Positions 146 to 25,926 of a DNA stretch of 44,001 bases are shown one piece after another. Every line of letters starts with the position of its first letter. The first letter of the stretch is position 1. The notes under the pieces are model-generated. The model saw only the letters and a list, made by a program, of their open reading frames with translations, did no database searches and was not told the origin of the DNA. The translations under genes were made by a program, and so were the position numbers. Source of the stretch: Phycisphaerae bacterium (GTDB lineage: Bacteria > Planctomycetota > Phycisphaerae > Sedimentisphaerales > Anaerobacaceae); the NCBI GenBank assembly GCA_030619925.1, contig JAUXAL010000027.1, positions 1 to 44,001 of the forward strand, given 5' to 3'.

Positions 146-2536
146 CTACCCACCTAACATCATAAAAGTTAAGGTAGACATCTGGTTTTGTAGCAAAGTT
201 AAGGTTTTCTCGAGGCGGGCATATTGAGCTATCAATCTTGCCTCCCTTTGAGTAAGGCGGCGTTCTTCGAGTTCGATATTTACTTGGATGTTCTCAATTG
301 TATCTTTGACACGTTCTTGGTCAATCTGGATCGAGCCGGTTGTCGTCTTTAGCATTCTATCGAGGTCGTCTTCTATCGCACCGGTAAAGCCCTGCTTTAC
401 CCTGACCGTAGCGATGAAAGGGCCGTCTTGACTTGTGTCAACGTTGAGCTGAAGACCGTTCTCAGGATACAGGGGGTCACCATTATCGTCGAACGTGCTA
501 TCGCCGGTGACAATATTGCCGCTAAATGGTGCATTGCGGTAGGTTGATTCGGTTGAAAGTTTGATTTTGGCATTGATGATTGCTCCACCGCTTATCAGCA
601 CCTCAACATAGTAAGTGCCGGCTGTGGTATAAGTGCTGCTGGCGCCGTAAAATTCGATAGTATTACTGTCGCTGCTGCCGGTTTTATCAGCTCCGATTAT
701 TGCAAGGACATCCATATAATCTTCGGCTATTGCTTCATCAAAGACGTTTGAGTCCAAACTCAACAGACCGTCACGGTCAATCTCAAGGCCGATGTGGATG
801 GGTAACAGGAAGGTGTCGATGTCTTCTAAGAATCCACTGGTTCGGGCGATAAGGGGTGTGCGAATCTTGTTCCTTATGGTTGAAACGATATAGTCTCCCA
901 TTAGCACGCCGGCGGTTTTTAGTTCATCATTGTAGCCGGTCTTTTCCTTAAGATAGACGACGGTGGAATTGTAGGCAGTAATCATGGAATTTAATTTCGT
1001 TTTGACCGACTGTATATCTCTGGTCAGAGTTATCTCCTCACCGCCGGCATCCGTGGTATCGTGCAGATGCAGAGTTACGCCGTAGATAACATCGTCCACG
1101 GTATTAGAGCTTCTTTTGATCCACCAATTTGTGCTGTCGCCTTTTGTCGTTTCCGAAAAAGTCCAACCGGAAGAGGGCTTCAGGTTAGTGGTATCAATCG
1201 AAATCATGCTAACATCACCAGCAGTATTCCGGAATGTGAATGTCGTATCACCATCGTCCTTCAACTTCTTACCACTCACACCTATATCATCGGGACTGAC
1301 GTTTGGCAAAAGCTCAAGTGCATCTTTAATCGCGTCAAGTGTAGCATCAAACGCAATCGCGCCAGTAGTTTGTCCGTCATAAGTTAAGGTAAAGGTACCG
1401 CCCGTCGCCTTGGTGGTCTTAGACAGCGTCTGCACCTCAGCAATTCCTCCTGCTTGTGGGGGGTAGCCATCAACCCTTATTTCGCTATCCTGAGCTGACT
1501 GGCTTTCAGTGAAGTCTGCTTCTGCGAAGCCTGTAAGGTCCGCTGTTACGCTGCCGCCTTCTGTCTCTTCGGCCATAGTAGGCAAGCCCAGATCTGCTGA
1601 TGAGCCGCTACCCTGTGTGAAAGATAAACCAATTTCAAGCCCACTTGCTCCATAGATATCGTCGGTCAAAATAATTTGCCCGTTAACGAGGGTCGCTTTG
1701 GCTACTCCGTCAAAATAATCATTAATCTCAGAGATAAGATGAGTGAGCTTGGTATTACTTGTAACGGGAAGCTCTAACGGAGGAGTTATGGCAACACCAC
1801 TATGATTCTCACCTGTGATTGTAATTTTATCTCCTGTCCCCAGACTGCCTGTAAATTGGTCGAGGTCTGTAATTCTGGTACTTAGTGTAGCATTGTTACC
1901 GTCAACAGTAAAAGTGTGGTTCGGCTCCTCGGTGTCAGGAGCCCAGACTTCAGTGTTGCTTGCGTTGATGGAGATTGTATAATCCGTGCCGGCGTCATCG
2001 CCGTTTAGCACCAGGTGGTAGGCACCGTCGTAATATAATAGGCTTGCAGTAACGCCGGGATTGTTCGCATCGTTGTTTATTAGGCCGACTAACTCTTCCA
2101 GTGTTGTGGTCGCAGTGGTCGTTACGCTTGTCTCCTTATGGTTATATGAGTAAATAAATGTGCCTTCTCCCACATAATCTTCGGCATACTCTTCTCCGGC
2201 CTCGTGAACCCAACGTTCGGCAGTGGCCAACTGGTTGATTTCAACTGTGTGATTACCTTCAAATGCGTTATAGGATGCTTCAGCGGTCACTATGTCGCTG
2301 TCGCTGGAGGCAGCTGAAAAAGCGCGAAGTTCATCAGCGTCGGAAAGAGCTCGAACAGAGGTTCTTAAGCTGCTGAGTCTGCTTTCCAGGGTGCCCAGGG
2401 CGGTTTTTCTTGCCTCCCACGTACTTTTGCGTGCTTCGAGCATATAGAATCTACGGCGCTCGATAGCCATCAAGTTGGCGATGAGTGTAGTTGTATCAAT
2501 ACCTGACAACAGACCTGGAAGACGCAAAGCTGACAT
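146..2536 (-). CDS. fliD: FliD, flagellar filament cap (hook-associated protein 2), enlarged
   Basis: This is the filament cap protein, exported through the flagellar channel, which helps flagellin fold at the filament tip. The N-terminus (LPGLLSGIDTTTLIANLMAI) is typical of FliD, and the C-terminus is a long helical segment rich in Q, E and R. At 796 residues it is much longer than the usual 450-550. The extra length is in the middle. Residues 125-190 look like a Flagellin_IN motif. Residues 217-315 contain a second such module (ITDLDQFTGSLGTGDKI). Residues 366-467 hold a beta-rich insert starting at GGTFTLTYDGQTTGAI that recurs in FlgL and FlgE of this locus. The start has AAGG about 10 bases upstream. 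It is last in the minus-strand block, directly after the giant glycosylation gene, and has its own sigma-28-like promoter. Confidence 0.93.
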   Translation of the reverse strand: MSALRLPGLLSGIDTTTLIANLMAIERRRFYMLEARKSTWEARKTALGTLESRLSSLRTSVRALSDADELRAFSAASSDSDIVTAEASYNAFEGNHTVEINQLATAERWVHEAGEEYAEDYVGEGTFIYSYNHKETSVTTTATTTLEELVGLINNDANNPGVTASLLYYDGAYHLVLNGDDAGTDYTISINASNTEVWAPDTEEPNHTFTVDGNNATLSTRITDLDQFTGSLGTGDKITITGENHSGVAITPPLELPVTSNTKLTHLISEINDYFDGVAKATLVNGQIILTDDIYGASGLEIGLSFTQGSGSSADLGLPTMAEETEGGSVTADLTGFAEADFTESQSAQDSEIRVDGYPPQAGGIAEVQTLSKTTKATGGTFTLTYDGQTTGAIAFDATLDAIKDALELLPNVSPDDIGVSGKKLKDDGDTTFTFRNTAGDVSMISIDTTNLKPSSGWTFSETTKGDSTNWWIKRSSNTVDDVIYGVTLHLHDTTDAGGEEITLTRDIQSVKTKLNSMITAYNSTVVYLKEKTGYNDELKTAGVLMGDYIVSTIRNKIRTPLIARTSGFLEDIDTFLLPIHIGLEIDRDGLLSLDSNVFDEAIAEDYMDVLAIIGADKTGSSDSNTIEFYGASSTYTTAGTYYVEVLISGGAIINAKIKLSTESTYRNAPFSGNIVTGDSTFDDNGDPLYPENGLQLNVDTSQDGPFIATVRVKQGFTGAIEDDLDRMLKTTTGSIQIDQERVKDTIENIQVNIELEERRLTQREARLIAQYARLEKTLTLLQNQMSTLTFMMLGG

Positions 2537-2617: not shown

Positions 2618-2644
2618 TTATCGCTCAAAAACCCTTCTTGCTTA
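2618..2644 (-). promoter_or_regulatory. Candidate sigma-28 (FliA) promoter for fliD
   Basis: Read on the minus strand, TAAG (2644-2641) is followed by 15 bases and AGCGATAA (2625-2618). The enteric sigma-28 pattern is TAAA, 15 bases, GCCGATAA. Spacing is exact and 9 of 12 positions match. Initiation would fall near 2611, about 75 bases before the fliD start. The -35 overlaps the stop codon of the giant upstream gene. fliA and flgM are both in this window, and fliD is a late gene in other systems, which fits. It has not been tested statistically. Confidence 0.45.
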
Positions 2645-5600
2645 ATTATTTATCTTATGTTTGCCAATAGAATAGCTCGTCGGGCTTTCTTCAGCCCATT
2701 TGGCCTGAAGAAGTTCATACTTTTGCAATAGCTGCCGGATTTGCCGGTTATTCGGGTCTATTTTGAGACAGTCATTTAGCTCTGAGCAGGCCAGTTTTGA
2801 GGCTCTTTCGGCATAGGCAGGCGAATTTGATTCTATGTAAGCATGCCCTATTGCAACATAAGTTGCGGCAGCTAAACATTTGGCATGCAATTGCCTCATC
2901 TCAGGGGGTATCTCATCCCACGAAACGTCCGGAAACAGTTCATCGTACGCGAACGTATCGGCAAATCGCTTGACGACCTCAAAATGACATTTCGCATTTT
3001 GGGCGGTGGAGTTTCTCAAAAGATTATTGGGGGTTATTCGGCGCAGGTACAGGGCGTCCTTTAGGTGATGTATTTTCAAGCCGCTCTTTACGAACCGCCG
3101 CATCATATCGTAGTCTTCGCCAACCAGTAGGTCCTCGTCAAAAAAGCCGATTTTGTCGAACACACTTTTTCTGATGCAGGTTCTAAATGGTACTATGGGG
3201 CAACCATAGCGGAACAGGTCTCTGATGAGCGACTTTCGGTCTGGATACTCGGGCCTTTCACTTACTCGAGTCGGCTTACCATCTTCGTCGATAAGATAAT
3301 CGTCGCAATAAACAAGGTCGGTCTCGGGATGTTTCTCGAACTGCTGCAGGTGCTTGGCGATGAAGTCTGGCGTTATCATATCATCAGCATCGAGGGTGAT
3401 TAGAAAATCACCTTTGGATTCTTTCATAGCGAGATTTCGGGCACTTGCGGTCCCTGCGTTTTCTTTGTAGAAGTATTTAATTTTTTCGTCTTTGAAGCCA
3501 GCGATAATATCTTTGGTATTGTCTGTCGAGCCGTCATCAACAATGATAAGTTCGAAATTTCTGTAATTTTGGATAAGGACACTTTCAATCGCCTCTGCGA
3601 TATATTCAGCAGCATTGTAGGCGGGCATTATGATTGAAACCAAAGGATTGCTATCGTTGGTATGTAAGGGAATTGGCGATATGTGTGGTGTGCCGGTTTT
3701 TTTGCCAACTATATATCGCTTGCTTGAACTGCGACTCTTTCTGCCATGTTCGATGCCGTTTTCGTTATGTTGAGTTAAGTGACAATATATTCTCTCTATA
3801 TCATCTACAGATTTTTCAATATCAAAGCATTGCAAAGCCCGTTTTTGGCCTGCAAGAGCAATCTGTCGCCATCTTTCTTCATCTCCGGTGAGCTGTAATA
3901 GTTCCCGAGCCAGGGATTCATGGTCTTCGGAGTTGAAAATGACGCCGCTAAGGCGGTGCTCTACGATTTCCTTCGCTCCGCCGGTGCCGCTTGTAACGAC
4001 GGTCAAGCCGGCAGCCATGGCTTCGACCTGACTGATTCCAAACGGCTCCTGAAAAACGGACGGAAAAACAAGAACATTGTGCCTTGCGAAAAAGTTCTTA
4101 AGGTCCTCTCGAGGAAGAAAGCCAGGAAAAGTGACCTTTTCGTCCATACCGGCCTGGGTGATAAAATTTTTCAGGCTATTGACAAATTTTTCATCGGTGG
4201 AAGTGCCGGCCAGTGAACAAGAAAAGTCGACTCCCATATCATGCAGCCTTTTTAATGCATTAATAAGGATATGAGGACCCTTGTACGGAAGTATTATGCT
4301 GGCATAGGCAATGCGTAACTTATCAAGAGCAGGAAGTACGGACATTTTAAATTCTTTGACCAAGGCACCAGGATAAATGACGCCGATCTGATGTAAAGAA
4401 TACCCTTGCTTCAAGATCTCTTCTTTTAGCCAGTTACTTGCGGTAGCAAGATGATAAAAACGACTCTTAGGTGTATCCTGGACAGAATAACCTGGATTTG
4501 AGTTTCCGAGGTGATGGATAACAGGAATCCCGTTTTTGAGAAGCGGTTGGAGGATGCTGTGGGACAAGAAGTCAATATTTCCAAGCAGGCACAACTGCGG
4601 CGAAAAATGCTTTATGACATTCTGTAATTTTTCGTCGTTCTTCTTAATAATCTGGAGGATTTTTTCTTTGTCTCCAATGGGTCTGCAGATTCCATTTTGC
4701 CAACTGCCAAACAAAAGAAGGCTTCTATCAACATTAGACTGGTCTTGGTCTATTGCTCCCAAATAAGGTGTATTCGATGTGAGGACGTAAATGGAATGCC
4801 CTCGATTTTCGAGAATGTTAGTGAAGTCATAGAGTAGCCGGCCATATCCGCCCAGTTCCTGCGGAGGATACAAATTATTTATCACGAGGATTCGCTTGGG
4901 CGGGAGGATAACCTTAGCAGTCCTTTTTGGCCGCTTTGCTGCTGTTCGTTTTTCAAGAGTCTGGATTTTCTCAGCCGTGGGCCATTCGCTGGTCCCCAGC
5001 TCGTTGCAGCACTTGTAGGCCTGCAATGCCTCCGGATTTCTATTGGATTGTTCGTAACATAAACCCAGGTGAAACCACAAAGACGGGTCGTCCTTATCAA
5101 GCGAGGCGGCTTCCTGAAACAGTTCAGCGGCATCATCAAATCTTTTCGTCCTGAGATAAAGATGTGACAGATTGGTTAGTGCATTCAGGTTCCTCCGATT
5201 GAGTCTGACAGCCTTGAGCAAGAGCTTTTCAGCATTCTCCAGTTGTTCAAGCTGGCATGAAATCACCCCCAGATTGTTTAGGGCATCGCAGTGAGAGGGA
5301 TTTTCCAACAATGCCTGTCCAAAGCAGCTGATAGCTTCAGCAATTTTGTTTTCAGAATAGAGTATTTTACCCCAGAGGTTCTTATCTTTCCAATAGTAGA
5401 GCTCCAGACCTTCAGACCTTTTCTCAAAACCGGCAGCAGCGAGAATATCTTTGAACTTCTTCTTCTGTTGCTCCTCAAGAGCATCGAATCCGTCTGAAAT
5501 CACGAGCCATTTGAACTTCATCGAAGTTAAGAGGTTCTCGAGACCAACGGTTAGAAGTTCTGAAGCGGTAATGACCAAGGCGTTCCAGAAAAGATCCATT

Positions 5601-8600
5601 TGCCGGAGTTGCTCGGTGGTAACGAGCTTGATTCGTTCAGCCATGTCGGTATTCTGGAAGAGTCGAGTGTTTTGGTCGGGGATTTGTTCACTATCGTTTT
5701 TTATAAACAATCGAAGTCTTGGGAGGTCCAGCACATCACAGGCAAGTCGGCCATCGACCTCTGGCCAGAACAATATCAAAGCGCTTGTGGTCGTCAGGTG
5801 AACCTCCTGGAAAAACTCGTAGAGAGCAACTCTTCGGACCAGCTCGATTGGAGGATCAGTTTTGACATAGATACTGCGTTTGTCTTTTTCAATATCGTAC
5901 AAAGGATTCAGCTCACCGCTAAGAATGTAGTCGCTCAATTCTTTAATCTTTTTTTCAGGAGTATGATTTCTCTCAAATTCTTCATATCCGTTTTGTGCGA
6001 TTGCTTTTGCTTCGTCAGGATGCTTCAAAAAATATTGTATCTTATCGAGCAAATCGCGGTCATTTTCGAAACAGACAAGATGCTGCCCGTCTTTAAAGAG
6101 CAGCTCCAGACCGGATTCCATAGTCAATTTGTCTGTGAGGAGAAACCCTCCGCTGGAGAGCACTTCAAAGACTCTGAGATTGAGGTCACCATTCAAGCTG
6201 ACGTTCAAGTTGACCAATGACTGGGCATAAATCTCCGCAGCTTTTGGCGGTGGAAGCTGGAAATGATTAACCGGGACGCCGTTTGCTTTCAAGTATTGAA
6301 GAATATATTTTCGGTAGGGATGCCATTTTCCAGCCTGTCCGACGAAAGCTACTTTATAACGTTTGTCCTCGTAATATGGCTGCTTGTGCGGAGAAATATT
6401 GAAGGCGGGAAGCCAAAAAACCTTTTCAAACCCGATTTCTTTGAAGTAATGAAGATGATGCCTCTTATGGTCGCTCATAATGAAGTCAAACTTTTCCTGC
6501 AAAGCGTACTTGAGAAGAGCTTGAATAGGTGTTTGCAAATGCTGTGTATTGCCGAGGATGAGGAGTTTGGGGCATTTTAGCGCCTGTAAGTTGATTGGGA
6601 AATTACGCCCCGTTGCATCTGCTTTGACCGCTACGAGCTGTGGAGTTTGAGAGGATGGTAACCGTTTGGCAATTTGTTCGATGTCATAGACTCCAGCTGG
6701 ACTCTTTATCGTGCGGTATTCATCTGTGTCCATCGTAGTCTCGCAATCCGGCCCACAGAAGACCTCTGCAGTTGAAATGATTGTTGGTCTGTAATTGTCT
6801 CTTGAGGATAGAAAACTGACAAGAGCATTGAACGAAGGATATTGGAAAGAATCTTTTTCAGCATGGCTCTCAGCAGCTTCGGAAATAGTTTTACCGCTCT
6901 TTTCAACCACTGAAGTAGCCTTCGCTGATGGACAGGCCCATCCTTGCGCCGTATCTTTGAGTTCGGGGCACCCGCCAAGCCTTACGTACGTCATCCAGCG
7001 ATACGTATCCATCTCGCGCTTTAGAAGCTCAAAAGGAGGCGTATCAGCGATATCCAAGGCTGGAATATCGATATAAACCTTTTCCATCGTTATCGGTTCA
7101 TCATACTGGTAAAGAGGTGGGAATATCTCGTATTCCTCAATGATCTGGCGTAAACGTGCTGCCTTTTCTTTGCCCGAAGACAAATGCGCCTGTAAAGTCA
7201 GATGTGAACCACTGCCTCCGGGGTAATTATCATCGAAAATCAGGTGCTCAAATCCTTTTTCCCAGGCTTGCAAAGCCCTGTTGTATGCGTTCTGGTGGTC
7301 ATCAAAAAATACCAATGCGCTTGAAATGTCGTAATTCCTGAAATCCATTTCCGCGAAATCCACAGAGGGGTAGATGGCGTTTTTTGAGGTATATTGCCTT
7401 ACTTCAGGATGTGGGTCTAAGCATATAATATCCGCGTGAGGTAGTGTCTCTTCGATAAGCCAGGTGCTGAAACCTTTCCAGACCCCGCTTTCCACTACCA
7501 GATTAGGCCTGACTCTTCGCAAGAAGTACCATAAGTTGAACGCACCCACTGATTTAAGTCCACCTTCATTATTTCGGATAGGTCTTTTCTCATATAATTC
7601 AAGGAATTCAGTGAGTAACTGCTCTATATGATCTTTCGCATACTCAGCGGCGCGTTTTACGCCGGGTTGTCGGTCCTCAACCTTTTCGTCCCGCAAAATT
7701 GTCTCACTATTCCAGGGCTCAAACCGGATAAGCGCCTCAGCAGACAAGCGGGGGCGATAGAATAGCTTGCCCCGCTCATTCAACATGCACGCCAAAAAAG
7801 AAAATGAGCTGTTCGAGATCGCCACAATGTCGCATTTGCTTAGTATGTAAAAATCAGGATAAAAGGGAGCTTCTGGCAACTCTGCCCCCAGGTCTTTGCT
7901 TGTTACAGGATTGTATTCAGCAAAATCACCGAGGACTTTTTCAGGTTCGTCACTGGCAATAAAGAGTACAGGCTCATCAAGCTTGTACCACAAATCCTGC
8001 AGCCAGTATTTATACCATTTGCTCGGCGCAACGAAGAAATGTCCGTACCCATAATCACTTCTCCGCAGGTGTATGCCTACGACGGTTTTGCCCTTCGAGC
8101 GAAGGCGATTCATAAGCTGGCTCATTTTGTTTTCTATTTCCGGAACAGGCCTGAACAAAGACCGAAAATAGTTCTTGTGAGGGGCGTAATAGCTGGTGTT
8201 GTATTGGAAGTAGCCCCAAAAATCCACGTTCTCGAATGTTTCTTTTGTATTCGGAACGACAGCTTCTGCAAGTTCATTGGTCGTCTCTTTAACTAAAGGG
8301 AGTTTACGCAGGATTGGAGGGTCTTTGTGCCCGAACAGGCCTTGTCCTATCCAGGGCGGCGTTCTAACCTCAAGATTATGTTTTTTCGCATAGGTCTTTA
8401 AGAATGCGTATTGAAAAACCTGATTAGCAAAGCGACCGTTTTTGCCCAGCGTCGACATTGTAATCACCGGTTTAGTCTCTTTCGCGTCGTCGCAAGTTTG
8501 GTCTAATATCCGTGCATCCACTTTCCTGACCCCAATTAGATAATGATTATTCTTCAAATGCCCGATGGGATAATCGTTCCATTGATAATCAGCACTATTA

Positions 8601-10036
8601 CGTACAAGGTTCGCGAAATAAGCCGTGTTGTCAATCCCGCGAAACTGTTCTTGATAAGCAATCAACACGTATGTCGCGCTGGAAATAAGAGCCCATATTT
8701 TATCTCTTAAGGTTACAGGAACTTCGCTAATTGACCATGTACCTATAAATGCCCAGAGACCTGTTTTTTCTTGTAATTGCTCTTTCAGCACATCATAATC
8801 TGATAGTAATACGATGCAATTTTCAGTATGCGTTACTTTTGTGCTGATATTGACTTCAATACCGCTTGCTTTCAAATAATATTCTTGTAGAGCTGACAGC
8901 TCGGGCAGATCAAAAATTATATACCGTCCTTTGAATCCCAGTTGATGTGCTAATCTGCACATGCTCCCGTATCCGCCGCCGAATTCAAAAATTTGGGACA
9001 TATCTTCGATATTACACCCTGCGGTACAGAGTAATTTGGCCAGATTATACGCTTGATGTATAAGGTTACCACTGCTGCTGGCACAAAATCGGTAAGGCTT
9101 CGGGTTGCCTACCGGCGATTCTCTGATTGCTCTTTCCCACTTATTCCAATTTGGAAGTTTCTGCAGAAATGCCAGTTCCACAACCGGTGGCTCATAAAAC
9201 ATACTATTCCTTATTACATCCCAGTTCAGGAAATTGCTTACATCGTCTTGCAACATAAGTTGACGAAGCCTGTTTTTTCTATACGTCCAGGCTTCTTCAA
9301 CTTCCGCCACGCCGGCCGCTTTGGCTTCTGGAAGCTGTCTTATCCTTGAGCGAAGCTCATCAACTAATTTTTTACCGCTGACAGTCACCGGTTTTGCTGA
9401 ATTGTTTTGGGCTTTTTTGGTCCTGCTACTGTATTCTTCCCAGAGTTTTGTGTTCACCTCTTGACAGTACCGAGCGAGTGCCATCCTGGCAAAATGGGGC
9501 ACCGCGACAATCACATCTTCAATTATTACGATGTACCTTTCCTTCTTGAAGGCTTGCAGTGCATTGATTACTGCGGTGATATTCGGCCACTGGTCCATCG
9601 AAAGATGGCCCGGTGGCGGTGACATAAACAGCCGTGCGTCGTCGATGAAAATGAAGTGCTCGTCCTCGGATCTGTTTATTGCCTCAATTTCGCCGATAAG
9701 TGGACCCTGTTCAGTCTGTCCGTATGTTTCCCCGCCGCTCCAGTGAGCATCAAGCCAGAAGATAGCTGGGCCATCGAGTCTGGCTACGACATCATCGAGC
9801 CTTTCTCTGCTGTCGCCATGTACGAACTCTATGTTTTTAATATGGCGGTATTTCTCAACGACCTTTTTGTAGAGGCTTTCGGAACCTTCGATGGTTATGA
9901 CATGGTCGAAAATGCTACTGGCCCAGTATGCCGTACCGCCGTGATATGTTCCCGTCTCGATGAAGGTGGTGATATGATAGGTTTCTTTCAGTCTACGAAT
10001 GAGCTCCTCTGGGGGGCCGAAGTTCACAATTCCCAT
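2642..10036 (-). CDS. Giant multidomain glycosyltransferase/methyltransferase fusion (2464 aa)
   Basis: One uninterrupted frame carries what are usually separate enzymes. In order: class I SAM methyltransferase-like domain (residues 1-185, ETGTYHGG at 27-34, FWLDAHWSGG at 93-102); sugar O-methyltransferase-like domain (about 250-505, FEFGGGYGSM near 350); GT11/alpha-1,2-fucosyltransferase-like domain (about 524-775, HLRRSDYG near 655); a third methyltransferase-like domain (about 825-1050, VVESGVWKGFSTW); a CgeB-type GT-B domain (about 1065-1365); an unassigned stretch (1370-1550); TPR repeats (about 1553-1682); a GT4 domain (about 1712-2088, E-x7-E near 1994); and a GT2 domain (about 2130-2332, VDDGSTDNT, then DADD near 2214); then a helical tail. 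GAGGG precedes the ATG at suitable spacing. It lies between a FliT-like gene and fliD, so flagellin (or other axial protein) glycan assembly is the likely role. This is inference. The 210 bases upstream (10037-10246) show no promoter I can defend. Confidence 0.85.
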   Translation of the reverse strand: MGIVNFGPPEELIRRLKETYHITTFIETGTYHGGTAYWASSIFDHVITIEGSESLYKKVVEKYRHIKNIEFVHGDSRERLDDVVARLDGPAIFWLDAHWSGGETYGQTEQGPLIGEIEAINRSEDEHFIFIDDARLFMSPPPGHLSMDQWPNITAVINALQAFKKERYIVIIEDVIVAVPHFARMALARYCQEVNTKLWEEYSSRTKKAQNNSAKPVTVSGKKLVDELRSRIRQLPEAKAAGVAEVEEAWTYRKNRLRQLMLQDDVSNFLNWDVIRNSMFYEPPVVELAFLQKLPNWNKWERAIRESPVGNPKPYRFCASSSGNLIHQAYNLAKLLCTAGCNIEDMSQIFEFGGGYGSMCRLAHQLGFKGRYIIFDLPELSALQEYYLKASGIEVNISTKVTHTENCIVLLSDYDVLKEQLQEKTGLWAFIGTWSISEVPVTLRDKIWALISSATYVLIAYQEQFRGIDNTAYFANLVRNSADYQWNDYPIGHLKNNHYLIGVRKVDARILDQTCDDAKETKPVITMSTLGKNGRFANQVFQYAFLKTYAKKHNLEVRTPPWIGQGLFGHKDPPILRKLPLVKETTNELAEAVVPNTKETFENVDFWGYFQYNTSYYAPHKNYFRSLFRPVPEIENKMSQLMNRLRSKGKTVVGIHLRRSDYGYGHFFVAPSKWYKYWLQDLWYKLDEPVLFIASDEPEKVLGDFAEYNPVTSKDLGAELPEAPFYPDFYILSKCDIVAISNSSFSFLACMLNERGKLFYRPRLSAEALIRFEPWNSETILRDEKVEDRQPGVKRAAEYAKDHIEQLLTEFLELYEKRPIRNNEGGLKSVGAFNLWYFLRRVRPNLVVESGVWKGFSTWLIEETLPHADIICLDPHPEVRQYTSKNAIYPSVDFAEMDFRNYDISSALVFFDDHQNAYNRALQAWEKGFEHLIFDDNYPGGSGSHLTLQAHLSSGKEKAARLRQIIEEYEIFPPLYQYDEPITMEKVYIDIPALDIADTPPFELLKREMDTYRWMTYVRLGGCPELKDTAQGWACPSAKATSVVEKSGKTISEAAESHAEKDSFQYPSFNALVSFLSSRDNYRPTIISTAEVFCGPDCETTMDTDEYRTIKSPAGVYDIEQIAKRLPSSQTPQLVAVKADATGRNFPINLQALKCPKLLILGNTQHLQTPIQALLKYALQEKFDFIMSDHKRHHLHYFKEIGFEKVFWLPAFNISPHKQPYYEDKRYKVAFVGQAGKWHPYRKYILQYLKANGVPVNHFQLPPPKAAEIYAQSLVNLNVSLNGDLNLRVFEVLSSGGFLLTDKLTMESGLELLFKDGQHLVCFENDRDLLDKIQYFLKHPDEAKAIAQNGYEEFERNHTPEKKIKELSDYILSGELNPLYDIEKDKRSIYVKTDPPIELVRRVALYEFFQEVHLTTTSALILFWPEVDGRLACDVLDLPRLRLFIKNDSEQIPDQNTRLFQNTDMAERIKLVTTEQLRQMDLFWNALVITASELLTVGLENLLTSMKFKWLVISDGFDALEEQQKKKFKDILAAAGFEKRSEGLELYYWKDKNLWGKILYSENKIAEAISCFGQALLENPSHCDALNNLGVISCQLEQLENAEKLLLKAVRLNRRNLNALTNLSHLYLRTKRFDDAAELFQEAASLDKDDPSLWFHLGLCYEQSNRNPEALQAYKCCNELGTSEWPTAEKIQTLEKRTAAKRPKRTAKVILPPKRILVINNLYPPQELGGYGRLLYDFTNILENRGHSIYVLTSNTPYLGAIDQDQSNVDRSLLLFGSWQNGICRPIGDKEKILQIIKKNDEKLQNVIKHFSPQLCLLGNIDFLSHSILQPLLKNGIPVIHHLGNSNPGYSVQDTPKSRFYHLATASNWLKEEILKQGYSLHQIGVIYPGALVKEFKMSVLPALDKLRIAYASIILPYKGPHILINALKRLHDMGVDFSCSLAGTSTDEKFVNSLKNFITQAGMDEKVTFPGFLPREDLKNFFARHNVLVFPSVFQEPFGISQVEAMAAGLTVVTSGTGGAKEIVEHRLSGVIFNSEDHESLARELLQLTGDEERWRQIALAGQKRALQCFDIEKSVDDIERIYCHLTQHNENGIEHGRKSRSSSKRYIVGKKTGTPHISPIPLHTNDSNPLVSIIMPAYNAAEYIAEAIESVLIQNYRNFELIIVDDGSTDNTKDIIAGFKDEKIKYFYKENAGTASARNLAMKESKGDFLITLDADDMITPDFIAKHLQQFEKHPETDLVYCDDYLIDEDGKPTRVSERPEYPDRKSLIRDLFRYGCPIVPFRTCIRKSVFDKIGFFDEDLLVGEDYDMMRRFVKSGLKIHHLKDALYLRRITPNNLLRNSTAQNAKCHFEVVKRFADTFAYDELFPDVSWDEIPPEMRQLHAKCLAAATYVAIGHAYIESNSPAYAERASKLACSELNDCLKIDPNNRQIRQLLQKYELLQAKWAEESPTSYSIGKHKINN

Positions 10037-10564: not shown

Positions 10565-11199
10565 CCGGTTTGCACCTCCGTCTGTTCTATTTGAGCCAGA
10601 CTATGTTCAACTTCTTCTAAGAGATTGGCTGCATCTTTATGATTCCCGTCCAAGGCCAAGATGTCCGAGAGGATTTTTTTAGACTGCTCGAGGCGACCAT
10701 CTTTCATATATAGCGCTGCCAGAGGGAACATAACAGAGGTGTCGCCCGGGTGCATATTCAAATACACCTCCAGATAGTAGGTAACCTTTGCGAACGAGCC
10801 CATCTGGCAGGAGGTTTGAAACAGGCCCAAAAGAGCTATCAGGTTGTCAGTGTCCAACTCGAGGCATTTAAGATACATCTCAAAGGCCTGCTTGTAATCG
10901 GCTCTTTGCTGTGCGACTAAGCCCAAGCCGGCATAGGCCTTGGTACAATTGCCGTCCAGCCGGCGAGCGACTCTGAAGGCTGTTTCGGCGTCATCAAGGA
11001 GATTTTTTTGCAGGGCCACTGCTCCAAGCCCAACGTAAGGGCCCGGCTCATCAGGTTCTAATATGGCTGCTTTTTCGTAGTATTGCTGTGCCTGTGCGTA
11101 GTTGCCAACAGAAGTGTAACAGTCACCCATTTCCTGCAGAAGTTCATAATGCTGGATCGAATCGTGCTGTTGGTTGGTATTGTTTTGTGTTATGTCCAT
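10561..11199 (-). CDS. TPR-repeat protein in the flagellar glycosylation block
   Basis: 212 residues made almost wholly of about five tetratricopeptide repeats, for example MGDCYTSVGNYAQAQQYYEK, then GLGAVALQKNLLDDAETAFR and GLGLVAQQRADYKQAFEMY. There is no signal peptide or membrane segment, so it is probably a cytoplasmic scaffold. Its start overlaps the end of the upstream glycosyltransferase gene by 10 bases, and its stop overlaps the next start by four, so it is translated within one operon. A role in holding glycosyltransferases or export substrates together is plausible but not shown. TPR segments also occur in both glycosylation enzymes beside it. Confidence 0.75.
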   Translation of the reverse strand: MDITQNNTNQQHDSIQHYELLQEMGDCYTSVGNYAQAQQYYEKAAILEPDEPGPYVGLGAVALQKNLLDDAETAFRVARRLDGNCTKAYAGLGLVAQQRADYKQAFEMYLKCLELDTDNLIALLGLFQTSCQMGSFAKVTYYLEVYLNMHPGDTSVMFPLAALYMKDGRLEQSKKILSDILALDGNHKDAANLLEEVEHSLAQIEQTEVQTG

Positions 11200-12902: not shown

Positions 12903-12996
12903 TGTTATCTGCTTTACTCCCAATTTTTGGCTTCCCATCCCGATGGGGTCGCGCAGGAACTGACCATCCCACGGTCGTTAACCTGGTGAAATTAGT

Positions 12997-13141: not shown

Positions 13142-14644
13142 CTATCTGATGAAATCCAGCAGCGACATGGACATAAGTTTGGCAGCTACGGCTAACGACA
13201 TTTGGTATAGAACCTCACGGCGAGCGAGGTCTATGGCAATTTGGGCGATATCAGCTTCCTGCAGGCGGGTCGCCTCATCTTCAGCATTGTATTTGCGGTT
13301 CTTTAGACTATCTTTGAGATCGTCCAGGAACCCGATTTCTGACCCCATTACAACTTGTGTTTGAACAAGAAGATTACGTACATCATCCAGGGTGCTTGAC
13401 AAGTCATCTTGCAGCGTTCGCAATTGACCCTCGGAAAGCCCTTTTTCGTTCTTTAATACATCCCGGATGGTGATGAGCGTATTGAATATATCATGAGTTC
13501 CGGGTATGCTTACCAAATCAACTCCGGTATTGATTATCCCCGTTGTATTAACATACAAGACTCGTCCAGCCGAATCTGTGACAGCGAGGTTGGTTTCCCC
13601 GACACCTTCCGTTGTCGTGCCTTCAGTTATAGTTGTTGTCCCACCGTCTAACGTGTTATCGCCGGCCGTTAATTCGGAGACATTGCCAACGGTGTCAGCA
13701 AATGTAATAGTGAAGCTGCCGGCTGTGCAGCTACCAGTTACTGCTACGTCACTCTCGTTAAGGTCCGACAATGCTTCAAGAGCAGCTTCAACCTCAGCAG
13801 CACCTTCATCCCATTGAATGGCACCGGTCTTTTGTCCGTCAAAGGTCAAGGTGAAGCTGCCCGAGGTCGGTGCCGGGATGAAAGTCAATGTTTGAACTTC
13901 CGAACCTTTCCCCTTGCCGACGGTTACGTAATCGGTTCCATCGTTAATAGAGAGTCTATATTTGTCTGGGTCGGTGTCTTGCGTTATTGTCAGCCAGGTA
14001 TAGCCGGTAACACTCGATGTCCTCGTGCCGGCCTGAGCACCGGTAGAGTCCAGCAGGAATTGGGCGTCACTGCGATTATTCGATCGAAAAATATCGTCGC
14101 CTGCGTAAAAACCACTGGTCTGCACGCCCGGGGCCACTTCTATGTCTCGGTCGTCACTGCTGCCCTGATAAGTTACGCTGGTGATTTTTCCATTGGTGCG
14201 TTCTGCGAGGTATGGCGCCGAGGTCGTGTTGCCTCCCCCAAAGATATATTGATTCATATATTTGGTGTTGCCCAATAAGACCATGTGTTCCAATATACTG
14301 TTGATTCCTTCTGCCGTTCTTTTTCTTCCCTCTTCGCTGTAGGTGCCGCTCATAATTTGAGTTAGCTGCACTTTCGCATCCACAAGAGATGACGTCATAC
14401 CCTCAATAGTGCTGGAGGAAAGCTCCAGTGTGCTAAGGACTTCCGAGAGGTTGTCTATATAATTTTCCAGGGACTTTTCCTGAGAGTTAAACCCTAAAAC
14501 CCGGTAAGCGGCAGACGGGTCATCGGAGGCTCGATTTATTCGTGAGCCGGTAGACATTTGCTCCTGAAGGCGAGCCAATGCCTTAGTGTGCGAATACAAA
14601 GCGAAGCTAACGTTATTATAAATGTTGTTCAGTGTTCCGCTCAT
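13142..14644 (-). CDS. flgL: FlgL, hook-filament junction protein (HAP3) with inserted beta module
   Basis: This secreted junction protein joins the hook to the filament, above FlgK. The N-terminus is flagellin-like (SHTKALARLQEQMSTGSR followed by INRASDDPSAA), and the C-terminal helices (LQEADIAQIAIDLARREVLY) are typical too. At 500 residues it exceeds the usual 300-400. The surplus includes residues 249-350, which begin SGSFTLTFDGQKTGAI and match the inserts in FliD and FlgE. It follows flgK, as in many flagellar operons. The 125-base leader to flgK contains a repeated TCTCGTAT/GATCTCGAAT-like tract. Confidence 0.93.
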   Translation of the reverse strand: MSGTLNNIYNNVSFALYSHTKALARLQEQMSTGSRINRASDDPSAAYRVLGFNSQEKSLENYIDNLSEVLSTLELSSSTIEGMTSSLVDAKVQLTQIMSGTYSEEGRKRTAEGINSILEHMVLLGNTKYMNQYIFGGGNTTSAPYLAERTNGKITSVTYQGSSDDRDIEVAPGVQTSGFYAGDDIFRSNNRSDAQFLLDSTGAQAGTRTSSVTGYTWLTITQDTDPDKYRLSINDGTDYVTVGKGKGSEVQTLTFIPAPTSGSFTLTFDGQKTGAIQWDEGAAEVEAALEALSDLNESDVAVTGSCTAGSFTITFADTVGNVSELTAGDNTLDGGTTTITEGTTTEGVGETNLAVTDSAGRVLYVNTTGIINTGVDLVSIPGTHDIFNTLITIRDVLKNEKGLSEGQLRTLQDDLSSTLDDVRNLLVQTQVVMGSEIGFLDDLKDSLKNRKYNAEDEATRLQEADIAQIAIDLARREVLYQMSLAVAAKLMSMSLLDFIR

Positions 14645-14769: not shown

Positions 14770-16731
14770 CTATATTATTTCCATCAGAGTAAACAGCGAT
14801 GACTGGACTGTGCTTATATATTTGGCTATTGCCTGAAACATCTGCTCGAAGATCAACATACGGGCAGCTTCATCGTTGATGTTGACGCCGCTCATCTCGC
14901 TTTGCTGACTGGCAAGGTTTTGGACCATAACTACCGTGTTTTCCTGGCGTATTTCCTTAACCAAGACATTTTGACCAAGGTTCGCAACGAGCCAGTGATA
15001 AAACTCCGGGGCCGTCATAGAGTTTAAACTGCTTATGGCCTGGTCCTTTATTCCTGCCATCCGCAGGGCGTTGGCGTTATCGGTCATATCCGCCCCCAGG
15101 GCCGTTGCCACACGGCCCGGCGAATTGGCTATCTCTGAGCACACCGCCATGCTCGTAGCACTGCTACCGGAGAAGAAGGTATTGATTCCGGCCGCCGCTA
15201 ATACTCCCGAAGTATCCGAGCTTGCCAGCGCCTCAATAGTAAATTCTTCATCTACAACCAGCGTGCCGGCTCCGACTGAAATGAAAATCCCATCCCCTAT
15301 TTCTATGCGATCGTCGGCCGCATAATCACTGCCGACATTAACCGTCGCAACCACCTGGCTGGCGCCATCTCTAACCTGAATCTGTAGACCACTGGTATTG
15401 CCTACAATGCCGCCATTTATGACCTTGCCCGTATAAATCTGGTTTGAAGATCCTGTGTAAATGCCCGATACAGATATCGTCGGCGGTGAAGTCATACTGC
15501 TGGTATCAGCCGACGATACTCCGGGCAGAAAATCGAATTCGTAGTCTGCATCGGCTAAGATGTTCAATTTCGAAGAGCTCACCGAGGCGGTTAGGCCGGT
15601 AATGGCTGAAATAGCCGTCGCTATAGTGGTTAACGTATCACCGCCTTCATCTGCATCAATAGTAATCTCTTCTCGTGTTATTGTGCCCGTGCTGGTATTG
15701 ATAACTCTAATATATATTTTCCCGTCGGTTACGGCCGGGTCAAAATCGGCCAGATCTTCATCCGCCATTGACCAGCCGGTCAGCTGGGTAAACGAGCCCT
15801 CTGAACCTACTCCCTGAACATGGTATTGATTTATCTGTTGAATTATTGCACTTGCTAAACTGTCCAGGTTGCTGTGAACATCAGAGATAAGGTCATTTCT
15901 TAACGACAATAATCCGCCGAGTCGTCCGCCTTGCACGTCTGTCTTATAGTTGTACATGCCGGCGATGGAAACACCCAGGCTGCCGCCTGTTATCAAACCC
16001 ACCTCGAGTTCAAAGGTAGTGGTGCCTGACACCGCGGGTATTCCAGCAATGCTGACATTAACTGTGCCGTGCTCTTGAGCATGGGTCTCTAATCCTACTA
16101 ATTCCGACAGCTCTGCTATGCGCTGGTCTCTTTGGTCACGCAAATTGTTGGTCTGTCCACCGGTCATTTCTCTTCTTGCTATTTCGCCGTTGAGTTCAGC
16201 AATCTGGTTTATCAGTGTATTAATCTGCTCGATGGTGTTTTCAGCTTCCAATTTAATCTGGTTTTCCAGCGTGTTCAGAAATCCTCCTAACGTTCTAAAC
16301 CGGTCGGCCAGAGTCTTGGCAGCGGTTACAGCCTGGTTTTGCCAAATGGCTTCTGCAGGATGGGCGCTGAGGTCTTGCAATGCGTTAAAAAATTCGTCTA
16401 TAGCTGCGTTCAAACCACTGCCTGTTGAAAGCTCTCCGAATGCGTTTTCGACTGTACGCAGCGTGGCAAGCTCCTGCGAGACTTGCCCTGATAACGACTG
16501 CTGGCGAAGAATCTCCTGCTCCAAAAGATTGTCGATCATTCTGGTGATGCCGGTGACGTCTACACCCCCTCCCAATATAACGTCACCGATTTGCGATGAG
16601 TAGGCAGGAGCCAGATTTACTCTCTGACGGTGGTAGCCATCAGTAGCTGCATTGGCAATATTGTTGCCAATTATGTCAAAGGCCTTCTGAGCTGCACTGA
16701 GGCCGCTCATCCCTATGGAGAAACTATCCAT
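14770..16731 (-). CDS. flgK: FlgK, hook-associated protein 1
   Basis: First junction protein between hook and filament. The N-terminus (SGLSAAQKAFDIIGNNIANA) has the rod/hook family signature, and the C-terminus ends in the paired helical segment (MLIFEQMFQAIAKYISTVQS). 653 residues, within the range for large FlgK. A middle region (about residues 335-410) with a TTIATAISAITGLTAS motif followed by a short strand resembles a Flagellin_IN-type module. It does not carry the GGTFTLTY-type insert seen in FlgE, FlgL and FliD. GGAG lies 7 bases before the ATG. A large palindromic repeat separates it from flgN. Confidence 0.94.
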   Translation of the reverse strand: MDSFSIGMSGLSAAQKAFDIIGNNIANAATDGYHRQRVNLAPAYSSQIGDVILGGGVDVTGITRMIDNLLEQEILRQQSLSGQVSQELATLRTVENAFGELSTGSGLNAAIDEFFNALQDLSAHPAEAIWQNQAVTAAKTLADRFRTLGGFLNTLENQIKLEAENTIEQINTLINQIAELNGEIARREMTGGQTNNLRDQRDQRIAELSELVGLETHAQEHGTVNVSIAGIPAVSGTTTFELEVGLITGGSLGVSIAGMYNYKTDVQGGRLGGLLSLRNDLISDVHSNLDSLASAIIQQINQYHVQGVGSEGSFTQLTGWSMADEDLADFDPAVTDGKIYIRVINTSTGTITREEITIDADEGGDTLTTIATAISAITGLTASVSSSKLNILADADYEFDFLPGVSSADTSSMTSPPTISVSGIYTGSSNQIYTGKVINGGIVGNTSGLQIQVRDGASQVVATVNVGSDYAADDRIEIGDGIFISVGAGTLVVDEEFTIEALASSDTSGVLAAAGINTFFSGSSATSMAVCSEIANSPGRVATALGADMTDNANALRMAGIKDQAISSLNSMTAPEFYHWLVANLGQNVLVKEIRQENTVVMVQNLASQQSEMSGVNINDEAARMLIFEQMFQAIAKYISTVQSSLFTLMEII

Positions 16732-16826: not shown

Positions 16827-16827
16827 C

Positions 16828-21427: not shown

Positions 21428-21440
21428 CCTTTGGAATTCC

Positions 21441-22175: not shown

Positions 22176-22176
22176 T

Positions 22177-23562
22177 TCAGACTCCTTGCAAAGCCGCCGG
22201 TTCCGCAGCGCTTTCCTCTGCCCCTTGCTTGTCGTCGGCAGGGGCTGAAACATCCTGACCTTCGACACTGCTTCTTGTCGAAGCTGCATTGGCGGCGCGG
22301 ATTAGCTCATTAACGTCTGAGTCGCTGAGTCCTGTCAATTCAACTGCTATTGACAGACCATTTTCTATAGCCCTGACGCGCCTGACCTCGCCGATATCTT
22401 CTACTATTTTTGAAGGTGTCGTTTTGCCCCGCCGAAGGCGGGTATTATCCTGCCCGGCGCTGCCGGGCCGCACCAAAATAGCGTGCGGCGAAGCGTCTTT
22501 TTGGTACGGGATTGAATCCTCGTCCTTTTCTTCATCCAAGCTGAATGCTACCAAAACTCTCTCGCCTGCCTTCACTTCCAGCGGGGCCTCTATACGCAGA
22601 CCAGGGCCGCCCAGCTCAGTAACAGTCGCAGGTATAAATTCCGGTAGTCCCCACTTGATGCCGGAGGCACCGGCCGAAGGCCGGTTTGATCCGGTCCAGG
22701 GCTTCGCCCTGGCCAAACTTGGCCCCAGCGTTCTTACGAATGGAAAGCGCATGATGAAGGCCGGCTTGTTTACCGGAACACGCAAAAAACGCCGGCGATT
22801 AATGAACCGTATGTTATCACTGTGATTCAAAGCCAGAATGTTACCGTTGCAGCTAACTACAGAAGTGTCGAACTCCCAGACTGAAGCGCCGAAATAATAC
22901 CGCGCGCGCCAGAACTCGCCCGGCTTACTTTCCAACGACGTTGTCAATTTGACGGTAAGTTCCATATTGTCGTTCTTTATAACGGTGGACTCAATATCAA
23001 CTAAGTCGGGGGTTTTACGGCGGGTTATATGAAGTTTTTTACCTGTGGAAATTTGTCTGCTGCTCAGCTTTCTTGATTTCGTTGGCGAGCCTATTGAGGC
23101 GGAGGTTTTTTTCTGGAAGCCAAGCTTTTCGCGCAGGAAGGACAGTTCGGTTCTTAACCATTTGCTTTTTTCGGCTCCTTGCCGGGCAAGACTTTCTTCT
23201 ATTATTTTGGCTGCTCCGTTGTTAAAAGCACTGGGCATAGTAAAAATGGCCTCGCCTCTCTTAAGTCCTGCTTTACGTGCTATCTCAAGCAGAATTTCAC
23301 GCTCGCGCTTGCTCAAACCCCTTCTTTCAGCATACTTAACAAATAACTGCTTGGTAAGCTTTCGTTCCTGTGCCGCTCGATTATAGCTGACCATCAACAG
23401 CAACACAGTCAATATGATTATGGCAGCGGTCCCTGTTAGAATAAACCATTGTTCGGTCATAAAGTCGGTACTAAAGCGGCCTGCAGCCTCCCACCGTTCC
23501 ACCGGTGTAAGTGCCAGAACAACAACATTATACCCTGCTGTGATTACAGGTGCTGTTATCAT
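22177..23562 (-). CDS. Membrane-anchored PilZ-domain protein, putative c-di-GMP flagellar brake
   Basis: 461 residues. A single membrane segment (about 39-60, WFILTGTAAIIILTVLLLMV) is followed by a basic cytoplasmic region, then a YcgR-N-like beta domain and a PilZ domain. The PilZ signs are the RRRFLRVPVNKPAFI loop, which carries the RxxxR c-di-GMP binding arginines, and the later ELGGPGLRIEAPLEV strand. Such proteins slow or bias the motor when c-di-GMP rises. Lying between flgE and flgF is unusual. The PilZ part is broken by two in-frame palindromic inserts at 22661-22712 and 22426-22510. GGAAG precedes the ATG. The function is inferred from family. Confidence 0.8.
   Translation of the reverse strand: MITAPVITAGYNVVVLALTPVERWEAAGRFSTDFMTEQWFILTGTAAIIILTVLLLMVSYNRAAQERKLTKQLFVKYAERRGLSKREREILLEIARKAGLKRGEAIFTMPSAFNNGAAKIIEESLARQGAEKSKWLRTELSFLREKLGFQKKTSASIGSPTKSRKLSSRQISTGKKLHITRRKTPDLVDIESTVIKNDNMELTVKLTTSLESKPGEFWRARYYFGASVWEFDTSVVSCNGNILALNHSDNIRFINRRRFLRVPVNKPAFIMRFPFVRTLGPSLARAKPWTGSNRPSAGASGIKWGLPEFIPATVTELGGPGLRIEAPLEVKAGERVLVAFSLDEEKDEDSIPYQKDASPHAILVRPGSAGQDNTRLRRGKTTPSKIVEDIGEVRRVRAIENGLSIAVELTGLSDSDVNELIRAANAASTRSSVEGQDVSAPADDKQGAEESAAEPAALQGV
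22426..22510. repeat. Palindromic element inserted in frame in the PilZ gene (distal)
   Basis: Three hairpins in series: CCCGCC-GAA-GGCGGG (22428-22442), GCCCGGC-GCT-GCCGGGC (22452-22468), and CCGCACCAAAA paired with TTTTTGGTACGG (22467-22510). It encodes about 28 low-complexity residues (VRPGSAGQDNTRLRRG) within the C-terminal PilZ region, with the reading frame kept open. Confidence 0.75.
22661..22712. repeat. Palindromic element inserted in frame in the PilZ gene (proximal)
   Basis: ACCGGCC-GAA-GGCCGGT (22669-22685) is followed by CCAGGGC-TTC-GCCCTGG (22696-22712). The translated insert (RAKPWTGSNRPSAGASG) falls between the first and second strands of the PilZ barrel. The frame is intact. 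Confidence 0.7.
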
Positions 23563-23580
23563 CTTAAACTTCCAAACTTA

Positions 23581-25926
23581 CTATCTGATAAGGTTGGTCA
23601 GTTCTCGCAGTATTTCATTGGCAACCCTGATGGTCCTTGCATTGGCCTGGAAGCCGTTTTGGGCATGAATCATATTGATGAACTCGGTTGCCACATCGGC
23701 GTTGGATTTCTCCAATGCCCCACCGTGAATGGCCCCGGCACCGCCGCTCAAGGCCTGCGTGGCTATTGCCCCGCCTGAGTTGGCCGAGAAGTTGAAGTAA
23801 CCACCGCCCTTGCTTTCCAGAGCTGCCGCGTTCTGGAATAACGCTATCATAAGCGTAGCAATGTTTTTCTTGATACCATTGGAGAAAACACCAATAAGGG
23901 TACCTCCACTATCGACCGAAACTGAGGAAAGGCTGCCTGCTTCATAACCATCCTGCTCTCTTGCTACCGCCGTGGAATTTCCGGCGAACTGTGTCAAGCC
24001 ATCTAACTGACCTGTAGTACCCGTGTTGACCGTCATGGTTTGTGGATTTGCGGTATCGTGTCCAAACGTTATTGTAAATTGGGCGGTATCCGTACCGGTC
24101 AAGCCGGAGAAAGAACCGTCGCTCGAAGCAAAACCGATATCTTCAATTCGCCGGTTGCCCATACTTATCGCAGTGATATCGCCGGTAATTGAGGTTAGGA
24201 CCATATCCCAGGTGTTGGCCGTATTTGTTCGAACGAATGCACCTGAGAGAACGTGTTTGCCGCCCTGAGTGTCATAAACCGTGATGTTAATGCTTTTAAC
24301 TTCTTCGCCGCCGACGGTTGCTATTTCGAAATACGCCGGCATTGTAAGTGTACCATCCCCACTCCAGGACGTAGTCAAATCAGACTTGCTGAAGCCGGCG
24401 GTGCTATCGGTTATTGTTAATTTGCCATGGACCAAAGACGCTGTCGCACCACTGCCAAGAATTCCCTGGAGACCTCGGCCTTTTATCGTTTCTGCAACCG
24501 AACCCGACGGGCTTGTTCCACCTTGCAGGCCGGTGGTATCAATCGTCAGCATGGAAACATCCGTCCCGGCCAGGTTATCCTTAAACTCAACAACAAAGGC
24601 GTCAGCCGGAAGACCAGTGGTACCACTGAGGGTGACACTCACATCATCAATGGCGGTCAATGCTTCCAACGCTGCTTCAATTTGAACGGCGGTAGCACTA
24701 TGGCCCATCGTACCAGTCGTTTCGGTGCCATAGCTCAGAGTGAATGTGCCCCCGGTTGGTGAGCCCGTAATAGTAGCCGTCTGCTTTTCGTTAATTGCCT
24801 TTGTTCCTTTTTTCGTTTCTGTGACATCAGCAGTATCACCTTGTAGGTTAGTGCTATCAGTTACCAGGTCGGCAACATCCGTCCCGGCCAGGTTACCGGT
24901 AAACTCAACAACAATTGAATCAGTCGGAAGACCACTGGTACCACTGAGGGTGACACTCACATCACCGGCACTAATAGAAGACAAACTTTCCAGCGCAGTT
25001 TCAACTTCAGCAGCAGTGGCATCATAGGCAATAGTGGCGGGCGTTCCGGTGCTCCCAAAGTCCACTGTGAATGAGCCCCCAGTAGCAACTGGAAAACTAA
25101 TTGTCTGCGTTTCGTTAGACATACCATCGTCATCGTTCAAGAACGCCAGCACATCAGCTAATGTGGTGGTCGCATCAATATCCATCGTCAGGTCGGTCTC
25201 TGGAGTGGCGCCCAAATCAGTACCATCCGGTTTATAACCGGAGAAGGTGATTGTGCCCGAGCTCAGCGTTCCGGTATATTGGTCGAGGTCTGCGATTTTT
25301 GTGTTTACCGTAGCCGTGGTGCCATTATTGGTGGTATATGCCACATTCGAGCTTAGCACGTTGATTTGTGTTGCGGGAAGTTTTGCGTCGGCGCTTAGGT
25401 TGCCGACTACTTTTATTTCGGACGTAGCATTTGCAGCCATCGCTACATCGAAAGGAACATGAATATTGCTGTTGCCGGCAGTCTGGAAACCTTCACTTAC
25501 ACCTACCGAGCCGATACGCTGAACAAGATAGCCCGATGCGGGGTCAACCAAATTCGAGTCTGCGTCAACAGCAAACGCCCCCGCGCGAGTGTACACGTCT
25601 TGCGAACCGTCACTCACCACAAAATAGCCTTGCCCTTCTACCGCCAGATCCAGCGGATTGCCCGTATTTACGAGATTGCCCTGTGCCATATTTGGAGAAA
25701 TACCGGATATGCCAACACCACTGCCCATCTGCTGAGGATTGGTACCGCCGATAGTACTCGTCGGCTGCGACGCCTTTTTTATCGTTTCGCTCAGCAATTC
25801 CGAGAAGGTTATCCTGGTCGCCTTAAAAGCGGTAGTACTGACATTGGCCAGGTTGTTGCCGGCTATATCGAGCATTTTTTGGTGGGCCTGCAGCCCGGTA
25901 ACTCCCGCTGATAATGCAAAACTCAT
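23581..25926 (-). CDS. flgE: FlgE, flagellar hook protein, enlarged by tandem modules
   Basis: Hook subunit of 781 residues, against about 400 in enterics. N-terminus AGVTGLQAHQKMLDIAGNNL and C-terminus NADVATEFINMIHAQNGFQA are canonical. Residues 200-268 (KIADLDQYTGTLSSGTITFS) and 485-523 (ATASLVHGKLTITDSTAGFS) are two halves of one module that is intact in FliD. Between them lie two tandem copies of the GGTFTLSY-type module (about residues 273-380 and 381-484). The second half also has a family FlgE region (YDTQGGKHVLSGAFVR). It follows flgD and precedes the PilZ gene. The insertions lie in the part of hook subunits that faces outward. Confidence 0.95.
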   Translation of the reverse strand: MSFALSAGVTGLQAHQKMLDIAGNNLANVSTTAFKATRITFSELLSETIKKASQPTSTIGGTNPQQMGSGVGISGISPNMAQGNLVNTGNPLDLAVEGQGYFVVSDGSQDVYTRAGAFAVDADSNLVDPASGYLVQRIGSVGVSEGFQTAGNSNIHVPFDVAMAANATSEIKVVGNLSADAKLPATQINVLSSNVAYTTNNGTTATVNTKIADLDQYTGTLSSGTITFSGYKPDGTDLGATPETDLTMDIDATTTLADVLAFLNDDDGMSNETQTISFPVATGGSFTVDFGSTGTPATIAYDATAAEVETALESLSSISAGDVSVTLSGTSGLPTDSIVVEFTGNLAGTDVADLVTDSTNLQGDTADVTETKKGTKAINEKQTATITGSPTGGTFTLSYGTETTGTMGHSATAVQIEAALEALTAIDDVSVTLSGTTGLPADAFVVEFKDNLAGTDVSMLTIDTTGLQGGTSPSGSVAETIKGRGLQGILGSGATASLVHGKLTITDSTAGFSKSDLTTSWSGDGTLTMPAYFEIATVGGEEVKSINITVYDTQGGKHVLSGAFVRTNTANTWDMVLTSITGDITAISMGNRRIEDIGFASSDGSFSGLTGTDTAQFTITFGHDTANPQTMTVNTGTTGQLDGLTQFAGNSTAVAREQDGYEAGSLSSVSVDSGGTLIGVFSNGIKKNIATLMIALFQNAAALESKGGGYFNFSANSGGAIATQALSGGAGAIHGGALEKSNADVATEFINMIHAQNGFQANARTIRVANEILRELTNLIR
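24475..25107 (-). repeat. Tandem repeat of about 320 bp inside flgE
   Basis: Two copies (25107-24784 and 24783-about 24475) encode the duplicated beta module. DNA identity is high in the middle: CGGAAGACCA and ACTGAGGGTGACACTCAC begin at equivalent positions 318 bases apart (24607 and 24925). The N-terminal ends are offset by 324 bases, so a two-codon indel separates them. This looks like a fairly recent duplication. Confidence 0.85.

Follow-up and report, generated by a model that had tools for sequence, protein, structure and literature searches.

Tailed phages carry immunoglobulin (Ig)-like domains, reportedly the subject of work by Fraser and colleagues in 2006. These domains are described as promiscuous accessories of the virion surface and proposed to bind carbohydrates weakly; in phage Douge, separate Ig-like domains of capsid (major capsid protein, MCP) and tail tube (tail-tube protein, TTP) label Mycobacterium smegmatis cells and bind mycobacterial surfaces (PMC13033339). 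Flagella offer a second precedent: domain D4 of Campylobacter FliD is an extra globular domain of the cap protein, and the source on it regards inserted domains in FliD, hook proteins and flagellin as nothing out of the ordinary, with heparin binding as a guess (PMC7316729). Here we analyze 44,001 nucleotides of a Phycisphaerae bacterium, one of a group of uncultured planctomycetes (contig JAUXAL010000027.1, positions 1 to 44,001; the whole stretch is called the window), with a flagellar gene cluster on the minus strand. A module of about 100 residues occurs once in FliD (filament cap), once in FlgL (hook-filament junction) and twice in FlgE (hook); all module-bearing genes of the window are flagellar. 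With a probability of roughly 0.7 for the explanation as a whole, we interpret the module as a phage-type accessory domain that sits in loops of flagellar proteins, is exchanged, and may form an outward binding patch.

One module in cap, hook and junction proteins

An earlier note, written from the letters of the window alone, had claimed that FliD, FlgL and FlgE have this module in common and that FlgK lacks it. Compared with shuffles that preserve composition, pairwise scores among the four copies were 11 to 26 standard deviations higher. In no pair did any of 2000 shuffles attain the real score, so similarity in all pairs survives correction for composition. BLASTP matched every pair with an E value of 0.003 or better, in one direction if not in both. 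When the own assembly was searched at E ≤ 1 with a profile built from the four copies, only those four were matched, and FlgK gave no match. Pfam and NCBIfam models identify the hosts as FliD, FlgL and FlgE, extracellular axial proteins as had been supposed. The observation of a common module is confirmed; its interpretation is partly supported, as discussed below.

No Pfam or NCBIfam domain model above cut-off covers the module, the overlaps being sub-threshold or whole-protein models. The Flagellin IN motif (PF07196) matches FliD residues 131-180 only, not the module, and no Ig family scored above cut-off in the Pfam scan (a FlgD_ig match at the end of the FlgL copy, with E 0.07, is below cut-off). 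A likeness to phage virion and bacterial surface-like proteins, mentioned in the earlier note, was borne out by PHROGs, PDB profile and locus matches. PHROGs tail families 10909, 2839, 792 and 117 match one or more copies, and the eight PDB profile matches include gp23 of phage Bxb1 (9d93; E 1.7e-39, three matched stretches). The predicted structure of FlgE module 2, with the element order strand-strand-helix-strands and the helix between sheets, superposes on Bxb1 gp23 at 1.6 Å with 29% identity, and its closest folds are other virion domains. We also scanned 75 open reading frames (ORFs) from viral loci against PHROGs (96 minus 12 over 900 amino acids (aa) and nine apparent near-copies). All 75 match phrog_10909 and phrog_2839; these two profiles contain the module, so that such matches are uninformative on the host protein.

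Host genes with and without the module

We surveyed 162 genomes of the order Sedimentisphaerales at E ≤ 1e-4, assigning flagellar class with module-free FliD, FlgE and FlgL queries and tallying by hand. A module match was found in 59 genomes and at least one flagellar copy in 57: the module is in FliD of 56 genomes, FlgE of 15 and FlgL of 5. In three genomes, that of the window, G357 and G359, each of the three proteins carries it. Among the 59, two genomes have it in non-flagellar ORFs only, a giant one (G347) and a small one with a signal-like start (G442). In G370 both FliD and a phage tail protein carry the module. Beyond the order, the 13 of 15 further class genomes inspected and 16 phylum genomes showed no flagellar host. 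The module turned up in no flagellin, no search having been aimed at flagellin. Named loci retrieved with FliD modules are mostly from Planctomycetota. Two genomes have one host gene twice: the modules in the two flgE genes of G386 (L290, L297) belong to different lineages, and both fliD genes of G388 (L311, L312) carry modules.

Many host genes lack the module. Among 61 relatives, some of them without flagella genes, FliD was matched in 40 (19 with the module), FlgE in 45 (4) and FlgL in 42 (1). Module-free relatives align continuously across the insertion site, and open-frame lengths follow. FliD measures 678-757 aa without the module (one exception, G058, has 819) and mostly 786-829 with it; FlgE, 557-586 without, 668-707 with one and 781 with two; FlgL, mostly 393-412 without and 500-514 with. 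FlgE insertions lie at one position in 16 of 16 rows (15 genes), at G001 residue 267, in a second domain (described below) between helix-like and strand-like stretches. FlgL is interrupted at position 246 in the window and at 231/232 in four other genomes. In a FliD tree computed without the module (47 rows, of which 30 have one; reduced from 55 by dropping six named G-genome duplicates and two fragments, G004 and G012), presence changes seven times, at least five of them forced by starred branches. The rows nearest to window FliD, G027 and G021, are without the module.

Exchange of the module between genera

Window FliD and the FliD of G383, which belongs to another genus, have 60% DNA identity outside the module and 92% inside. 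Fourfold third bases differ at 4 of 44 positions in the module, 53 of 102 upstream and 52 of 70 downstream (Fisher 1.6e-10, uncorrected, for a pair chosen after a scan). Similarity sets in some 48 codons upstream of the module, and the tract ends within a few codons past it, at the point where the empty-site gene of G027 resumes. FliD pairs of the window, G009 and G035 show a weaker version of this pattern. Across the 11 self-chosen pairs given the fourfold test, the module is more similar in five, more divergent in one (G035-G384) and no different in five. In other pairs the module is much more divergent than the host gene, as after replacement; identity in G026-G397 FliD is.46 for the module versus.74 for the whole aligned protein.

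To relate the copies we built a tree of 104 modules. It samples 64 of the 89 flagellar copies, with thinning of FliD at 72% identity, and 40 of the 225 from viruses or elsewhere. An earlier tree had 98 modules, of which 38 were flagellar, 35 viral (from 160) and 25 other (from 65). With about 100 alignment columns, many forks are unresolved. The 104-row tree has a starred 100/97 split, with the bootstrap not settled, into side A (40 FliD, 7 FlgE and 3 viral copies) and side B (33 viral, 9 FlgE, 5 FlgL, 4 other and 3 FliD copies). The closest phage-flagellum link seen is a viral contig (L087:1399-3231) on which a tail-tube protein (PF18906) has two modules that group with the FliD lineage. The FlgE host tree was built without L080, which duplicates G397, without the truncated L328 and without five named rows that proved to be FliD. 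On it, occupied versus empty needs two changes and an occupant of none, A or B needs five; hence, occupants have been exchanged in one slot or inserted there more than once. For example, a starred group (100/100) unites G358 FlgE, whose module is of lineage A, with an empty gene and four genes of type B.

Selection was estimated from the ratio of nonsynonymous to synonymous substitution rates (dN/dS) in pairs with at least 72% protein identity (55 rows including one self-comparison and one repeat, thus 53 distinct pairs). Module dN/dS was 0.1 to 0.4 in 40 of the 53.

A proposed phage-type domain in flagellar loops, and the alternatives

We propose that the module is a small accessory domain like those on the tail tips, tail tubes and capsids of tailed phages (the Bxb1 gp23 type), which in Sedimentisphaerales has been inserted into outer-domain loops of FliD, FlgE and FlgL. 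Some host genes have it and others do not, and recombination has swapped the slot occupant between lineages in FliD, probably also in FlgE. The flagellum would most likely gain a patch that faces outward and has a weak affinity for glycans or surfaces. The homology, the fold, the empty and occupied sites, the repeated gain or loss and the FliD exchange between genera are demonstrated by the data above. Since the host genes exist in both forms and the rest of the protein aligns in either case, the module probably lies outside the axial core; its insertion in loops, with intact empty sites in relatives, is consistent with exposure to the outside. Binding to glycans or surfaces is a guess by analogy with phage accessory domains, to which we give somewhat less than even odds. 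A wider idea, possible though rather doubtful, is that the flagella and tailed phages of the order draw on one pool of exchangeable surface cassettes, with fixed slots in cap, hook and junction. If so, phages would take modules for their tail tubes, capsids, head-decoration and tail-tip proteins from this pool too, while repeated recombination replaced the occupants of the flagellar slots and gave the flagellum a phage-type recognition surface.

Several points weigh against this explanation. (i) Exposure and binding are suggested by insertion sites and analogy, and the glycan evidence comes from Douge (PMC13033339), which is not among the module's eight PDB profile matches. The FliD model is too uncertain to display projection from the axial fold, with a predicted local distance difference test score (pLDDT) below 50 around the insertion (311-362 and 465-501), so that projection is only presumed. 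(ii) Bootstraps of neither the 98-row nor the 104-row tree had settled. The window FlgL copy is unstable, lying among viral modules in both trees and beside the FliD lineage in a 49-row tree (98/86*), and the rejection of one flagellar clade by approximately unbiased (AU) tests depends on sampling, with indicative p values of 0.065 for 98 rows and 0.0085 for the 49-row subset, which was picked after seeing the tree. (iii) Among 317 modules, no DNA similarity comparable to that of window-G383 FliD (fourfold divergence 0.09) was found between FliD and FlgE or FlgL, or between flagellar and viral copies, the lowest divergence per such class being 0.29 to 0.48. With no recent phage-flagellum DNA transfer seen, the phage link is at the protein level and its direction cannot be told. 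(iv) In the majority of pairs that gave finite ratios, dN/dS is higher for the module than for its host gene, which indicates weaker constraint on the module; for two pairs with recent exchange the module ratio is as high as 0.95 and 0.75.

A serious rival, though in our judgment an unlikely one, is that flagellotropic phages, predators or hosts select for a changing flagellar surface, with binding secondary. One slot does hold occupants of different lineages, modules can be far more divergent than their host genes (as in G026-G397), and both the two high dN/dS values and the usual excess over the host gene would fit. However, the ratios in most of the 53 pairs indicate purifying selection on average, and the module is absent from window FlgK and was not seen in flagellin (not specifically searched), though most of the surface belongs to the filament.

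We consider it improbable that the domain is a neutral passenger, tolerated by the loops of secreted polymers, moved by recombination and functionless in the flagellum. The many relatives that keep the host gene with an empty site, as counted above, are what a passenger would leave. Against this, dN/dS of 0.1 to 0.4 in most pairs disfavors a pure passenger, as does the presence of module copies in FliD of 56 of the 162 genomes.

Just as improbable, and already disfavored, is spread within one genome, in which one flagellar protein acquired the module and it was then copied to the others. The window hosts are all flagellar and the genome holds only four copies at E ≤ 1. The FliD-type lineage places some FlgE copies beside FliD of other genomes (for example G055 FlgE and G386 FlgE L297), and in the 98- and 104-row trees a single starred FlgE group includes both FlgE copies of the window. 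With 49 rows, AU tests did not reject a clade of the FliD lineage with window FlgE (p 0.57) or with L080 FlgE (0.25), or of the two FlgL copies (0.29); nor, with 98 rows, of the FliD lineage with window FlgL (0.156). A clade of all four window copies gave p-AU 0.0489 (98 rows) and 0.0016 (49 rows), and the six FlgE copies of the 49-row set gave 0.004; all these p values are only indicative, since the groups were named after seeing the tree. In addition, window FlgE copies match some viral modules with higher scores than they do the window FliD copy, FlgL has two distinct insertion sites, and FliD copies have no close DNA counterpart in FlgE or FlgL. The four window copies are thus not mutual closest relatives, and simple spread between proteins inside the genome fits poorly. 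What stands of the spreading module proposed in the earlier note is its presence or absence at fixed sites and its exchange between genera in FliD.

Finally, chance or convergent likeness of Thr/Gly-rich beta segments, a composition artefact that the abundance of T, G, S and A might suggest, is refuted by the shuffles and by the fold common to the module and Bxb1 gp23.

A second domain, neighboring genes and other carriers

FliD and FlgE of Sedimentisphaerales have a second domain in common (hhalign of module-free families, E 3.3e-19, 31% identity), with the pattern LSTKI.DLDQ..G.L ... NGKI.LTD. In FlgE the modules interrupt it between its helix and next strand, both read from the sequence pattern and not from an FlgE model. 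Features of the window are collected in Table 1.

Table 1. Flagellar genes, module copies and neighboring features of the window
Feature	Position	Strand	Basis or remark
fliD, filament cap protein, 796 aa, one module	146..2536	-	Pfam FliD_N, FliD_C
FliD module, residues 366-466, between VDGYP and I.RSSNTVDD	1139..1441	-	Profile/BLASTP; empty sites in relatives; exchange tract
flgL, hook-filament junction protein, 500 aa, one module	13142..14644	-	NCBIfam TIGR02550 above cut-off
FlgL module, residues 248-347; insertion site unlike that of four other genomes	13604..13903	-	
flgE, hook protein, 781 aa, two tandem modules	23581..25926	-	Pfam FlgE_D2, Flg_bbr_C, others
FlgE module 1, residues 271-374	24805..25116	-	
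FlgE module 2, residues 379-484; copy used for structure prediction	24475..24792	-	
flgK, hook-filament junction protein 1, without module	14770..16731	-	TIGR02492; no module match
Second FliD domain, residues ~200-331, common to FlgE	~1544..1939	-	hhalign; limits approximate, transferred from aligned relative
FlgE counterpart of second FliD domain, residues ~190-545, split by both modules	~24292..25359	-	Limits approximate
Multi-domain glycosyltransferases with tetratricopeptide repeats, between fliD and flgL	2642-10036 and 11190-12938	-	Pfam

Among the glycosyltransferases, which might decorate the module as the earlier note suggested, a 2464-aa chain joins several transferase domains. The C-terminal end of a 582-aa one (~11190-11450, minus strand) is repeat-like (GTSLPLPASVG...GTSLPLRGTPP) and is perhaps an inserted repetitive element.

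We also observed the module in other settings. A 576-aa ORF (L343, G535:C46) combines one module with an N-terminus that we read as prepilin-like (FTILEVLMAVLIMAIGLLGL); judging from this protein, another extracellular filament system may carry the module. In other Planctomycetota families, tandem modules occur in ~960-aa proteins starting W.GDA..AQV (L032-L036, L049-L051), with PHROGs matches only via the module, and also in giant ORFs (L037, L052, L084) with lengths from about 5400 aa upward. Giant module-bearing ORFs of the order itself measure 8121 and 14803 aa.

Comparison with known systems

Inserted domains in axial proteins (PMC7316729) and promiscuous domains on phages are already known. 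In open-licence full texts we found no report of a virion-type domain in three axial proteins (cap, hook and junction) with cassette exchange between genera. It connects phage structural genes and flagellar genes via a common domain family. Related FliD, FlgE and FlgL proteins that have or lack the module, and single slots with different occupants, are natural paired experiments that make the role of cap, hook and junction outer domains directly testable.

The native head domains of FliD and flagellin D2 (e.g. 5fhy, 5h5v, 4nx9; PMC5072837) are among the closest known systems. Campylobacter FliD D4 is likewise an extra cap domain; the module differs in being one phage-type family, in three proteins, with exchange. 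The Douge domains may belong to another family: they lie outside the eight PDB profile matches, and in the module a helix separates the sheets. The accessory domains of Bxb1 (gp23 of the tail tip, gp19 of the tail tube and the major capsid protein; PDB 9d93, 9d94, 9d9w, 9d9x) have the same fold and a significant sequence match. They sit on a virion, whereas the flagellar module is an insertion within axial proteins. On our reading, Bxb1 gp23 has three domain copies, and window FlgE has two; Bxb1 bears the same domain type on several structural proteins of one particle, just as the flagellar module is found on several axial proteins.
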